This document shows positions 7,563 to 32,766 of a stretch of DNA of 39,861 nucleotides, piece by piece. Both the position numbers and the translations under genes were made by a program. How positions within the stretch are numbered: position 1 is the first letter of the stretch; the number at the start of each line of letters is the position of its first letter. Location: assembly GCA_027314605.1 (NCBI GenBank), contig DAHVAM010000004.1, forward strand, positions 1 through 39,861. Reading direction: 5' to 3'. The notes beneath the pieces are model-generated. The model did no database searches, had not been told where the DNA came from, and was given only the letters and a program-made list of their open reading frames with translations. Source of the stretch: Microcaldota archaeon (GTDB lineage Archaea > Micrarchaeota > Micrarchaeia > Micrarchaeales > CABMGC01).

Positions 7563-9878
7563 GTGGTTCTCTTGATCAATTCTATAGAGCTTACAAACTG
7601 GAAGACTCACGGCTCTACGAAGCTCTCTTTCTCCAGGGGCACCAACATTCTCATAGGCCATATGGGCGCGGGGAAGAGCTCCATAATGGATGCCATATCC
7701 TTCGGGCTTTTCGGCACCTTCCCTGCGATAAAGAACAGGAGAGTAAATGTAAATGACCTGATACGGAACAGGCCGGACCAGAAGAAGAGCGCCAAGATAA
7801 GGCTTTCCTTCGACGTAGGGGAAGATTCCTATATAGTGGAAAGGGAGATCAGTTTGGAAGGGGCCGGAAAGGCAACCCTCCAGAAGAACGGAACCTACGT
7901 CCAGTCCCAGCCGCAAAGGGTTACCGAAGAGGTGGAGAAGGCCCTTGCCATGGACTACGACCTTTTTTCGAGGGCAGTCTACTCGGAGCAGAACCGGCTC
8001 GATTACTTTCTTGAGCTCCAGTCTAGGGAGAGAAAGAAGCAGATGGACAATCTGCTCGGCCTTGACAAGTTTGCAACTGCGCAGGAGAATACCACCAGCC
8101 TGATAAACAAGATAAAGGAGATGACTGAAGAAGGCAAGAAGGCCGCGGAGAGCTTCGACATCGAGATGCATAAGAGTCAGATGGCGGCGCTCGAAGAAGA
8201 GAGAAGAGCCGGCCTGAAGGATATTGACGGAATAGCGCTGAGCATAGGGAGACTAAGGGAAGATCACAAGAAGATACAGGGCAACCTGAAGAAGATGAAG
8301 GAGGACTACAACAGAAAAATTGCAGTGGAGAAGGAGATTGCGGAATTGAAAAGCAAAACGGAGATCCTATCAAAGGAGATATCCAAGATAGACTCTGAGA
8401 AATTGGGAAATCTGGGAGGGGTAAAGAAGGAACTGGAATCCTGCGAATCGGAGGCAAACAAGGCAAAGGCAAAAGGAAAGGAACTGATGTTAGAGGCGCA
8501 GAGCGCGCAGACAAGGCTCGGCAAAATACAGAATGAGATATCCTCCGTGGAGAAAGACTTACTCGAGAGGAAGAAACTCGACGAGAGCCTTAAGGGAAAG
8601 GACAAGGAAAAACTTGCGCAGGACCTCGAGATGCATAAAAGGGAGATAGAAAAGATAGAAGGGGAGGTAGCCTCGGCAACAGCGCAGAAGAACGATGCAG
8701 AAAAATGGATTAAGGAGCTCGAAAGGCATGTGGGAAAATGCCCGGTCTGCGAGAGGGATCTCGACCAGCGGATGAGGGAAGAGTTGCTGAGGGCGAAGAA
8801 GGAATCCGCCGCAAGCTCGTCAAACAAGGCAAAATCCCTGCAGGAGATTCAGAAGGCCAAGAAGGCCGATGCGGAAAGGCTGAGCGCTTTGATCAATGAA
8901 CTGCATCTGGTCCAGGAAAGACTGAAACGCTACCAAAATCTCGACGAGAGGAGAACGAAAGCTGAAGAGGAGCTGAAGAAGGCAGAAGGGGAGAGCGCCA
9001 GGCTGAAGGAAGAGGTTGAGAGAATAAATGACGCGACGGAGGCATTGAATAGAAAACTGTCGGAATTGAAGACTGCAAGGAATGCGCTTGAAAGGAAAGA
9101 ACTTCACCTCTCGGAGAAGGCAAAGGCCGAAGAAGGCATATCGAAGAAGCAGGAGGAGTTCAAAGGGATAAAGATAGACGAGAAGAGCCTAGACGAGTTG
9201 CAGAGGCAGTTCACCGAGATCTCCTCAGGGATAAGCAAGAACGAGGCGACGCTTGAAGGGCTCAGCAAGGCGCTGGATGAAAAGGCGGCGAGGATCGAGG
9301 AGAAGAGAAGGGACATAGAGAAGATAGAACGGCTTTACAACGACATAAAATACAAGAAAGTCGTAGCCGACAATCTCGTAAAATTCAATAACTCGCTGCA
9401 GGAGACCCAGGCCCATCTGAGGAACAGGCTTGTGGGCTCGATAAACGGCATAATGGAAGAGATATGGCCGGAGCTTTATCCTTATGGCGACTACTCCGGA
9501 GTTGAACTGAGCGCCACTGAATCGGATTACATCCTGAGGATATGCACCTATAGGGAGGGCAAGGAGTCGTGGGAGGATGTCGACACCATAGCGAGCGGCG
9601 GCGAGAGGAGCGTAGCATGCCTTGCCCTGAGGGTGGCCTTCGCGATGGTGCTTGTGCCAAACCTCAAGTGGCTGATACTCGACGAGCCCACGCACAATAT
9701 AGACAGGCAGGGAATAGGGAGGTTTGTCAATGTATTCAATGAGAAGCTGCCGCAGATAGTGGGGCAGATATTCATAATAACGCACGACGAGCAGCTGAAG
9801 CAGGTCTCCAACGGCAAGGTCTACATGCTCGGAAGGGACAAAACGAAGAATGAGGAAACGTCTGCAATCCCGATGTAA
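7563..9878 (+). CDS. rad50: Rad50-like SMC-family ATPase with zinc hook
   Basis: Walker A IGHMGAGKSSIMDAISFGLFG, long coiled coils around CPVCERDL, Walker B WLILDEPTHNID; GTG start. Confidence 0.88.
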   Translation: MVLLINSIELTNWKTHGSTKLSFSRGTNILIGHMGAGKSSIMDAISFGLFGTFPAIKNRRVNVNDLIRNRPDQKKSAKIRLSFDVGEDSYIVEREISLEGAGKATLQKNGTYVQSQPQRVTEEVEKALAMDYDLFSRAVYSEQNRLDYFLELQSRERKKQMDNLLGLDKFATAQENTTSLINKIKEMTEEGKKAAESFDIEMHKSQMAALEEERRAGLKDIDGIALSIGRLREDHKKIQGNLKKMKEDYNRKIAVEKEIAELKSKTEILSKEISKIDSEKLGNLGGVKKELESCESEANKAKAKGKELMLEAQSAQTRLGKIQNEISSVEKDLLERKKLDESLKGKDKEKLAQDLEMHKREIEKIEGEVASATAQKNDAEKWIKELERHVGKCPVCERDLDQRMREELLRAKKESAASSSNKAKSLQEIQKAKKADAERLSALINELHLVQERLKRYQNLDERRTKAEEELKKAEGESARLKEEVERINDATEALNRKLSELKTARNALERKELHLSEKAKAEEGISKKQEEFKGIKIDEKSLDELQRQFTEISSGISKNEATLEGLSKALDEKAARIEEKRRDIEKIERLYNDIKYKKVVADNLVKFNNSLQETQAHLRNRLVGSINGIMEEIWPELYPYGDYSGVELSATESDYILRICTYREGKESWEDVDTIASGGERSVACLALRVAFAMVLVPNLKWLILDEPTHNIDRQGIGRFVNVFNEKLPQIVGQIFIITHDEQLKQVSNGKVYMLGRDKTKNEETSAIPM

Positions 9879-29496: not shown

Positions 29497-29543
29497 GCGG
29501 GAAAACCCGCGGCCTTCAGTCGTTGGGGATGCCACTTAGTTAA
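29497..29543 (+). mobile_element. Candidate solo IS200/IS605-type right-end / omega-RNA-like hairpin remnant
   Basis: GCGGGAAAACCCGCGGCCTTCAGTCGTTGGGGATGCC; hairpin CCCGCGGC-CTTCA-GTCGTTGGG; no tnpB/tnpA nearby. Confidence 0.4.
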
Positions 29544-30432
29544 GCTTCGCGTGCTCCTTGTTGAGATACTTTATCAGTTCCATGTAGATCTCTGTCTTGA
29601 TTCTGGCCCTGCTCAACTCGTCCATCTTCATGTGGATCGTCACAACGTAAAGGTCTTTGGATAAGTACTCTATGTCGATCGTATACTGGTCTATCTTCCC
29701 CTTGTTCTTTGACACCACGGCCTTTATCTTCCTCTCCAGGTCTGTGAACCTTATCCTTATGTCTACATTGAACTGCACTTTTGTCAGGTGCTCCTTCGCC
29801 CTGTGGTAGTTTATCACGAGGGCCTGCGCGACAATGTTGTTGGGCACAAGCATGGGAAGGCGCTCGTCGTTCGTTATCTCCGTATAGAGGACCCCTATGC
29901 TCATTATCGTGCCTGAGAAGCCTGGTATGAATTTGTCATGCGGGTAGGAAGGGGGTATCAGGTTGTATTGCCATGTGTGTATTATGACCCTGTCTCCAGG
30001 CTCGAATGCCTTGCTTGAGAGCAGGTATACGCCCGAGATGAAGTTCGAGAGCGTCGACTGTGCGGCAAGACCTAGGACTATGCCTAGGAACCCTGCGCTG
30101 ACAAGTATGCCTGTCACATTTACGTGAAGCTCTGCGAGTATCACTATCACGAGAAAGCAGTATGCGATTATCCTGAAGAGGTTTCTCAGAGGCCCTGCTT
30201 CCTCAAGGGCTATCCTCCTGGCGAAATAGAAATAGACAACTGCGCCCATAACCTCTATTATCGCGATTCCGACAAGCGCTGAGGCGATGATGTTGTCCAT
30301 CCCCTGTCCCGTTATCCTGAAGTGGAGCAGCACGGCGTAGAGCGCGATCACGACCAACGCAAGGATTATTATGACATCGATGAGCCTCCTTCTAAAGACT
30401 CCATCCTTGCGTTCCAGGTCGCCGCCTTTCAC
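29536..30432 (-). CDS. MscS-family mechanosensitive ion channel
   Basis: TM helices then GFLGIVLGLAAQSTLSNFISGVYLLSSKAFEPGDRVII. Confidence 0.93.
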   Translation of the reverse strand: MKGGDLERKDGVFRRRLIDVIIILALVVIALYAVLLHFRITGQGMDNIIASALVGIAIIEVMGAVVYFYFARRIALEEAGPLRNLFRIIAYCFLVIVILAELHVNVTGILVSAGFLGIVLGLAAQSTLSNFISGVYLLSSKAFEPGDRVIIHTWQYNLIPPSYPHDKFIPGFSGTIMSIGVLYTEITNDERLPMLVPNNIVAQALVINYHRAKEHLTKVQFNVDIRIRFTDLERKIKAVVSKNKGKIDQYTIDIEYLSKDLYVVTIHMKMDELSRARIKTEIYMELIKYLNKEHAKLN

Positions 30433-30687
30433 AAAATCAGAAATTCTCCTATTGCAAAGTTCTTATAGCTTTCGGGAAGCCCCATATCTGGGAATTTGAC
30501 ATTCGAACTCGACAGGCCTGGCTTTATTCCATGTGGATGGAAGTCAGAAGATATTTTCGTCAGAAAGATGTCTTTATGATTTCGTTATCTGACATGTACT
30601 TGTTTGTTTTATGCCTATTTGTCAACTTCCTATCCTAACTCATCCATAGCAGAAAGCTTTATAAATCTAGATATTTATATACAAGGA

Positions 30688-30737
30688 TGCGTTTAGAGTA
30701 ATCTATTTATCTTCCCCACCCTCTAAACGCTTTTTTT
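30688..30737 (+). ncRNA. Candidate ~50-nt small RNA with own promoter and hairpin/T-run terminator
   Basis: GCGTTTAGAG(30689-30698)/CTCTAAACGC(30721-30730) perfect 10-bp IR then T7; AAAGC-TTTATAAA BRE/TATA at ~30653-30665, 23-26 nt upstream. Confidence 0.55.
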
Positions 30738-30837
30738 ATTTACGCCTGCCAGCTCCAGCTCTCCGTTTCATCCAACGCTTCCCTAAGCGTATGGGCATCT
30801 ATTTAAATGTTAAACCATCAATTTATGCTGGATAATA

Positions 30838-32766
30838 ATGAAGAAATTCAATTCTACCGACGACATAAAAATACCTGACAAGATGATAGACCAAGTGATA
30901 GGTCAGGATAAGGCGGTTGCAATTACCAAAAAGGCAGCTGCCCAGCACAGGAACGTGCTCCTGATCGGTGAGCCTGGTGTCGGAAAGACAATGCTTGCGC
31001 AAGGGATGGCAGAGCTTCTCGAGAATGCCGACCTGGAGGATGTCCTTGTATTCAAGAATCCTAATGACGAGAACAGGCCGCTAATAAAGGTACTGCAGAC
31101 CTATCCTGAGAAGGAGAAGATCGATCCATCGAAGCCAGTCCCTGACGGCCAGGGCAGGCAGATGATACAAAAGGAGAAGATGAAAAACAGGACTGACGCT
31201 GGCAAGGCGAGGAGCAATATAATTCCTATAGTAACCATAATTGTCGCAATACTCCTTGTCGTTTCACTGATGAACCTGATACACGGCTACGAAATATTCG
31301 TAATGGCCGCACTGGTACTTGGGATATTGATATTTGGCTCCGTGGCGCTGTTCGTCAGCGGATTCAGGCGAGTGGGGGGCATACTTCCAGGGATGTTCGA
31401 GACCGGCGAACCAAAGCTCATTGTCGACAATACCGGACTGATGCACGCTCCTTTCGTCGATGCGACAGGAGCAAAGGCCGGCGCGCTTTTCGGAGACGTC
31501 AGGCACGACCCGTTGCAATCCGGAGGCCTCGGGACTCCTCCGCACCTTAGGGTCGAGAGCGGGGCTATCCACAGGGCAAACAAAGGAGTGCTATTCATAG
31601 ATGAAGTTGCGGATCTTGATGCTAAATCGCAGCAGGAGCTTCTGACTGCGATGCAGGAAAAAAAATATCCAATAACCGGGCAGAGCGAGATGAGTTCAGG
31701 GGCGCTTGTCAGGACAGACGGCGTCCCGTGCGACTTCCTTCTCGTTGCTGCAGGAAACCTCCCAGACATGCAGAAGATGCATCCTGCACTAAGGTCGAGG
31801 ATAAGGGGATACGGCTACGAGGTCTACATGGAATCATCGATGCCTGACACTGAGCAGAACAGGGAGAGGATAATAAGGTTCATCGCGCAGGAGGTCAAGA
31901 AAGACAAGAAGATACCTCCGTTCAGCTACGACGCGTGCATGGCGCTGGTCGAAGAGGCAAAGAGGCGGAGCGGAAGGAAGAACAGGCTTACGCTGATACT
32001 TAGGGATCTTGGAGGAATAATTAGAGCTGCAGGAGATATTGCGCGAGAGAAAGGAAGAAAGATAGTGGCAGAAGAGGATGTATACGACAGTTTCAAGGTT
32101 ACAAAACCGTTGGAAGCGCAGTTTGTAGAGCAGTCGCTTGATTACAGGAAGGATTACCAGATATTCAAGAGTGAGGGTTATGCCATAGGAAGGGTCAACG
32201 GCCTGGCTGTCGTCGGCTCATCGTATCTGTCTGCAGGAATAATACTTCCAATAGTCGCTGAGGTGACCCCGGCTTCGTCAAGGACCGAAGGCAAGCTGAT
32301 AGCGACAGGAAAGCTGGGCAGTATAGCCAAAGAGGCTGTCAAGAACATAAACGCCGTGATAAAGAAGCATATGAACAGGGACATGGCGAGCTACGACGTC
32401 CATGTGCAGTTCCTACAGACATACGAAGGAGTCGAGGGAGACAGCGCAAGCATATCGGTTGCCGTGGCAGTGATATCTGCGCTGGAGGGCATACCGATAG
32501 ACCAGGAGGTGGCGCTGACAGGATCTCTCTCGGTGCGCGGCGAGGTGCTCCCGGTGGGCGGCGTGAACAACAAGGTCCTTGCGGCCATAGAAGCGGGGAT
32601 GAAGATAGTCATAATACCCGCAGGCAACGGCCAGGATATAAATATAGACAAGAAGGAATTAAAGAAAATAAAGATAGTGCAGGCGAAGAACATAGCAGAC
32701 GTGCTCGCCGTCGCCCTAAAGAAGAGCCCTAGGAGTGACGCGCTCACAAAGAAGATGAGAAGATAA
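30838..32766 (+). CDS. lonB: Archaeal LonB membrane-associated ATP-dependent protease
   Basis: Walker [11 protein letters not shown], inserted TM pair, Ser-Lys dyad [17 protein letters not shown]...[11 protein letters not shown]. Confidence 0.96.

Follow-up and report, generated by a model that had tools for sequence, protein, structure and literature searches.

A probable hairpin RNA gene upstream of lonB in Micrarchaeota and a second hairpin with the same UCCCCAC loop

The window, the whole stretch of 39,861 nucleotides analysed here, belongs to a Micrarchaeota MAG of 758 kb that is 85% complete (G000). Positions 30433-30837 hold no credible ORF, as the first-pass annotation had noted. They separate the mechanosensitive-channel gene mscS (29536-30432, minus strand), which is transcribed away from the gap, from the plus-strand genes lonB-topoVIA, which begin at 30838 with the lonB ATG. 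The same annotation had placed in this gap a BRE/TATA-like element followed by a perfect 10-bp stem with a C-rich loop of 22 nt, and all of these are seen at base level on the plus strand. The promoter element AAAGCTTTATAAA (30653-30665) has its TATA end 23 nt before the stem, whose 5' strand GCGTTTAGAG (30689-30698) pairs with the 3' strand CTCTAAACGC (30721-30730). The loop read from the window sequence (30699-30720) is composed of a U/A-rich 5' part (30699-30710), variable by pairwise identity, and of a C-rich part CTTCCCCACC (30711-30720), conserved by the same measure and having a core TCCCCAC found also on the other stems of its paralogues. A run of seven T (30731-30737) comes next and is the likely site of termination or 3' end. 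A second TATA-like box, TATTTAAA (30800-30807), lies ~30 nt ahead of the lonB ATG, which suggests that lonB has a putative promoter of its own. The tiny ORF ATGCGTTTAGAGTAA, whose ATG is not conserved among homologues, was dismissed as a chance occurrence. We designate the hairpin RNA gene at 30689-30730 RNA-1.

The predicted folding energy of the hairpin is -12.6 kcal/mol (z = -4.7), and none of 200 shuffles folded as well. That the hairpin is not due to chance is argued more strongly by its conservation, which we rate above the folding z as proof. An Rfam 15 search of the window returned two tRNAs only and no family at the hairpin, a permissive Rfam search gave nothing near any gathering threshold, and a literature search found no paper on RNA-1. 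As a side observation, the SRP RNA of the archaeal genome G007 (L270, 7785-8042) passes the threshold of Rfam's model for the large SRP RNA of bacteria.

Of 60 relatives searched at the DNA level, about 22 gave the hairpin as their top match, with 72-98% identity, and anchoring on lonB in named genomes yielded 39 distinct sequences. With covariance model R1, 61 of the 79 genomes in the same Micrarchaeota family each had one copy and no more, a count that sets aside the palindromic echo on the minus strand; many of the genomes lacking a match are just 55-85% complete. Model R2, applied to the phylum (301 genomes), recovered the same 61 and seven more in a sister family, 68 hits in all, and none in families beyond these two. 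In the other genomes of the sister family, the region before lonB was searched for diverged copies and had none, and the viral contigs searched for RNA-1 gave no match. One sister-family locus (L294, in G146, C17:10482-10572) has arms GCUUUAGAA..UUCUAAAUGC, the loop CCUUUCCCAC and a TATA at the usual distance, and is a probable, strongly diverged RNA-1.

The first-pass annotation had asked whether the stem is conserved in syntenic relatives, and it is. Pairwise identity among 54 non-redundant homologues averages 0.97 in both stem strands, 0.94 in the last nine bases of the loop and 0.52 in its first eight nucleotides; it is 0.36 for the tail, 0.32 for the spacer and as low as 0.26 for the upstream sequence. 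RNAalifold recovers the identical 10 pairs with the loop open, and 99.8% of the alignment cells in the stem are paired. Compensatory changes occur at two pairs: in four sequences pair 2 is U-A in place of C-G, and in one sequence pair 4 is C-G in place of U-A. Both shuffles and slid controls have fewer such changes than the real stem alignment. Three adjacent ones are found in the family member of G023, detected with the promoter-plus-hairpin model R3, whose stem reads AUAUUUAGAG / CUCUAAAUAU and whose loop, with the 5' part nearly gone, is cut to ~10 nt and still reads AUUCCCCAC. These changes support the predicted RNA fold. The covariation is real but thin, six of the 10 pairs being invariant in alignment A2, and the constraint on the stem sequence is greater than pairing needs. 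The hairpin is 42 nt long in the window and 36-53 nt across species, with a spacer between the arms that ranges from ~10 nt (G023) and 16 nt (G012) up to 33 nt. The loci of these two short forms, L202 and L296, are natural loop-shortened versions of RNA-1, with a 16-nt loop in G012 and a ~10-nt loop in G023, and on their account UUCCCCAC was defined as the minimal loop.

Of 61 distinct homologues, 93% have a TATA, called as a match of at least 6/8 to TTTATAAA, whose end lies 20-31 nt before the stem; by the same measure it is found in 49% of the tRNA genes of the family and in 24% of shuffles. The promoter consensus is GAAANTTTATAAA and its TATA-to-stem distance peaks at 23-25 nt. Archaeal transcription generally starts ~22-27 nt past the TATA, so that the RNA would begin within a few nucleotides of the stem, in the window within a few nucleotides of 30689. 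That RNA-1 is transcribed, and where its transcript starts and ends, we infer from this geometry and from the tail, which is in general rich in pyrimidines. The T7 run, which the first-pass annotation took for a terminator, is present in the window species but is not a family feature, since a run of at least five T within 15 nt past the stem occurs in only 16 of 61 homologues. The conservation, the compensatory changes and the fixed TATA spacing lend strong support to the proposal of a small RNA of ~50 nt with its own archaeal promoter, and RNA-1 is very probably a genuine ncRNA gene. The sequences themselves show its identity as a gene and its structure, the geometry of its promoter, the single copy per genome, the common descent and the shared loop.

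The weaker matches of model R3 were hairpins with different stems and an identical loop. A strict scan blind to the stem sequence (stem of at least 9 bp, TCCCCAY in the loop) of two near-complete genomes yielded four UCCCCAY hairpins, every one with a TATA at 25-26 nt, and no hairpin with TATA for any of ten control motifs. The four are RNA-1 and a second hairpin RNA, RNA-2, in each of the two genomes. The RNA-2 stem, GUGUUAAGG/CCUUAACAC, is unrelated to that of RNA-1, and UCCCCACC is retained in all 12 RNA-2 sequences, drawn from both families. Genus g11 has RNA-2, and RNA-1 was not found there. All six genomes of the window's genus have RNA-2 in the form of a ~90-nt three-way junction that joins an outer stem GGAGGACUA/UAGUCCUCC to two hairpins, the first of which has the loop UUUUAUCCCCACCCAAAUCCC, a form whose homology to RNA-2 elsewhere is drawn from the loop only. 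The three-way junction of G000 itself lies on the minus strand of contig 9 at ~8500-8640 (L334, L330); its single-sequence fold differs in the inner hairpin, which the other five sequences and the consensus show. The claim of a class of such RNAs is based on the strict criteria because a relaxed scan, taking hairpins enclosed in the MFE structure, could not tell the motif from controls, and because in the sister family the class pattern taken by itself does not outnumber its reversed control. Sister-family members were accepted only when hairpin and TATA were both seen. On these criteria, hairpin RNAs with different stems and a common UCCCCAC loop point to one putative shared partner. Genus g6 has two further types of promoter-driven hairpin (L309, L343, L344, L345 and L308, L311); their loops are (G)GUCCCCACC or ACUCCCCACA and the stems are unrelated to those of RNA-1 and RNA-2.

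The neighbourhood of RNA-1 is strongly biased towards lonB. The 80 lonB-anchored loci contain 35 copies, of which 34 lie upstream in the same orientation as lonB, mostly at a distance of 100-250 nt, and one, in G001 (L014), is inverted. Carriers of RNA-1 cluster in the LonB tree (0/500 label shuffles as low), a pattern consistent with common descent plus several losses or moves, and since RNA-1 is found next to lonB in both families, this position is likely to be ancestral. In several genera RNA-1 is located elsewhere, with the next gene in opposite orientation in at least seven loci, as judged from ORFs called by simple rules. RNA-1 is thus a predicted free-standing RNA gene. The orientation bias and the position shared by both families would also fit a leader or attenuator that acts on lonB in cis, such as a sensor in its 5' UTR, but RNA-1 is not always directly upstream of the same gene and co-oriented with it. 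The displaced copies and their opposite neighbours, the inverted copy of G001, the TATA that lonB has for itself in the window and the RNA-2 of G007, ~20 nt from the stop codon of a convergent gene, make this role very unlikely. A double-stranded DNA element, that is a palindromic binding site or a site of replication or segregation, would account for one copy per genome and an invariant inverted repeat. It is highly improbable for sites whose arm spacer varies as widely as seen here and whose arms change in a compensatory way, with a conserved loop that is one-sided, a promoter at fixed distance and paralogues with unrelated arms that have only the loop in common. The hairpin and T7 of the window also have the appearance of a mere transcription terminator, a reading that is barely credible with a T run not conserved among homologues, a highly conserved loop, a promoter directly upstream and no upstream gene reading in, mscS pointing away in the window. 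The conserved loop and the promoter already refute termination as the sole function, and T5 or longer occurs in just 16/61.

The loop could instead act through base-pairing, UCCCCAC pairing as an antisense regulator with G-rich stretches of one or a few mRNAs. In Gram-positive bacteria, C-rich loops with a UCCC motif have been proven to bind the targets of the sRNAs RNAIII, RsaE, SprD, FsrA and LhrC, and LhrC shows that multicopy sRNAs with a common loop of this kind exist (PMC4132741). The first-pass annotation had proposed pairing with GGTGGGG-like Shine-Dalgarno sequences, which the counts here do not support: within -60 to +30 of the start this word occurs in 0 of 818 ORFs of G007 and in 3 of 822 of G033, GTGGGG and GGTGGG rank low at starts among their own permutations, and neither GGTGGGG nor GTGGGG is enriched at start codons. 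GGGGA is slightly more frequent at starts and ranks first among its five permutations, which speaks for pairing. SD motifs are rare in these genomes, and the 16S 3' end, GATCACCTC(A/G), corresponds to an SD different from GGTGGGG. Both GTGGGGA and GGTGGGG are absent from the 16S of five and the 23S of three genomes of the family. No intergenic complement of the loop is conserved between two relatives, and the complement of the extended 18-nt loop of RNA-2, sought in six genomes of the genus, was found only on the antisense strand of RNA-2. With no conserved complement in rRNA, in intergenic DNA or to the extended loop, we consider an antisense role unlikely. Two candidate targets were set aside: among a handful of coding-gene complements conserved in G007 and G033, the best, at the conserved KWG motif of a seryl-tRNA-synthetase-like protein, was judged a coding coincidence, and an 11-nt complement in G007, on the opposite strand from an apparent intron-containing tRNA, was not seen at the matching place in G033. 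In passing, the rRNA genes of G033 are unlinked, with 16S at 607044 and 23S at 368578 of contig 1.

We favour, with a probability of about one half, the explanation that the stem of RNA-1 displays UCCCCAC to a shared trans-acting partner, most likely an RNA-binding protein. A shared partner would explain why stems change with pairing kept while the loop stays fixed, and why unrelated stems carry this loop behind the same promoter geometry. The BRE/TATA promoter would start the transcript at ~30686-30690, and the RNA would fold as one hairpin ending in a pyrimidine-rich tail. The stem would then be a clamp that keeps UUCCCCAC single-stranded, and the C-rich loop, as the conserved functional part, would be bound by a partner that also binds RNA-2. 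A protein is favoured over an antisense target, the second most likely reading, because no RNA partner was found. Since the protein is deduced mainly from this missing RNA target, pairing that is short, imperfect or within coding regions may be involved. We infer further that the partner would be a sequence-specific protein and the RNAs a small RNP or a sponge for it. It may read the RNA-1 stem too, a near-invariant stem being needless for a pure clamp, and the strongly preferred position near lonB may point to a connection with that gene. Tentatively, RNA-1 and RNA-2 could be the founders of an undescribed class of Micrarchaeota RNPs in which stems are free and the UCCCCAC loop is fixed by one essential partner, elaborated in the window's genus to the ~90-nt three-way junction.

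DPANN archaea live on other archaea and have genomes of ~1 Mb; to our knowledge, their regulatory RNA is hardly known. RNA-1 and its loop-sharing paralogue offer a defined bait for the RNA-binding partner, and covariance models R1-R3 can be matched at once to existing mine-drainage metatranscriptomes. Hairpin RNAs with C-rich loops are already known, and RNA-1 is a member of none of the families considered. It is like the archaeal box C/D and H/ACA guide sRNAs in being a small archaeal RNA with its own promoter and unlike them in a loop without complement in 16S or 23S; alignments A1-A3 show no C/D boxes, ACA end or K-turn. With the Firmicutes sRNAs RNAIII, RsaE, SprD, FsrA and LhrC, whose C-rich UCCC loops bind their targets (PMC4132741), it has in common that they are small structured RNAs, some multicopy, with a C-rich single-stranded motif. 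It differs from them in its archaeal BRE/TATA promoter and single ~45-nt hairpin, with no sequence homology found, and in start regions that lack the complement and any enrichment of the G-rich motif, whereas the Firmicutes RNAs bind G-rich SD sequences. Compared with the CsrB/RsmZ sponges, in which GGA-loop hairpins bind CsrA, RNA-1 carries UCCCCAC in its loop and one motif per RNA. The likeness to these sponges, as an analogy and not as membership, is that several RNAs are proposed to show a loop motif to one RNA-binding protein.
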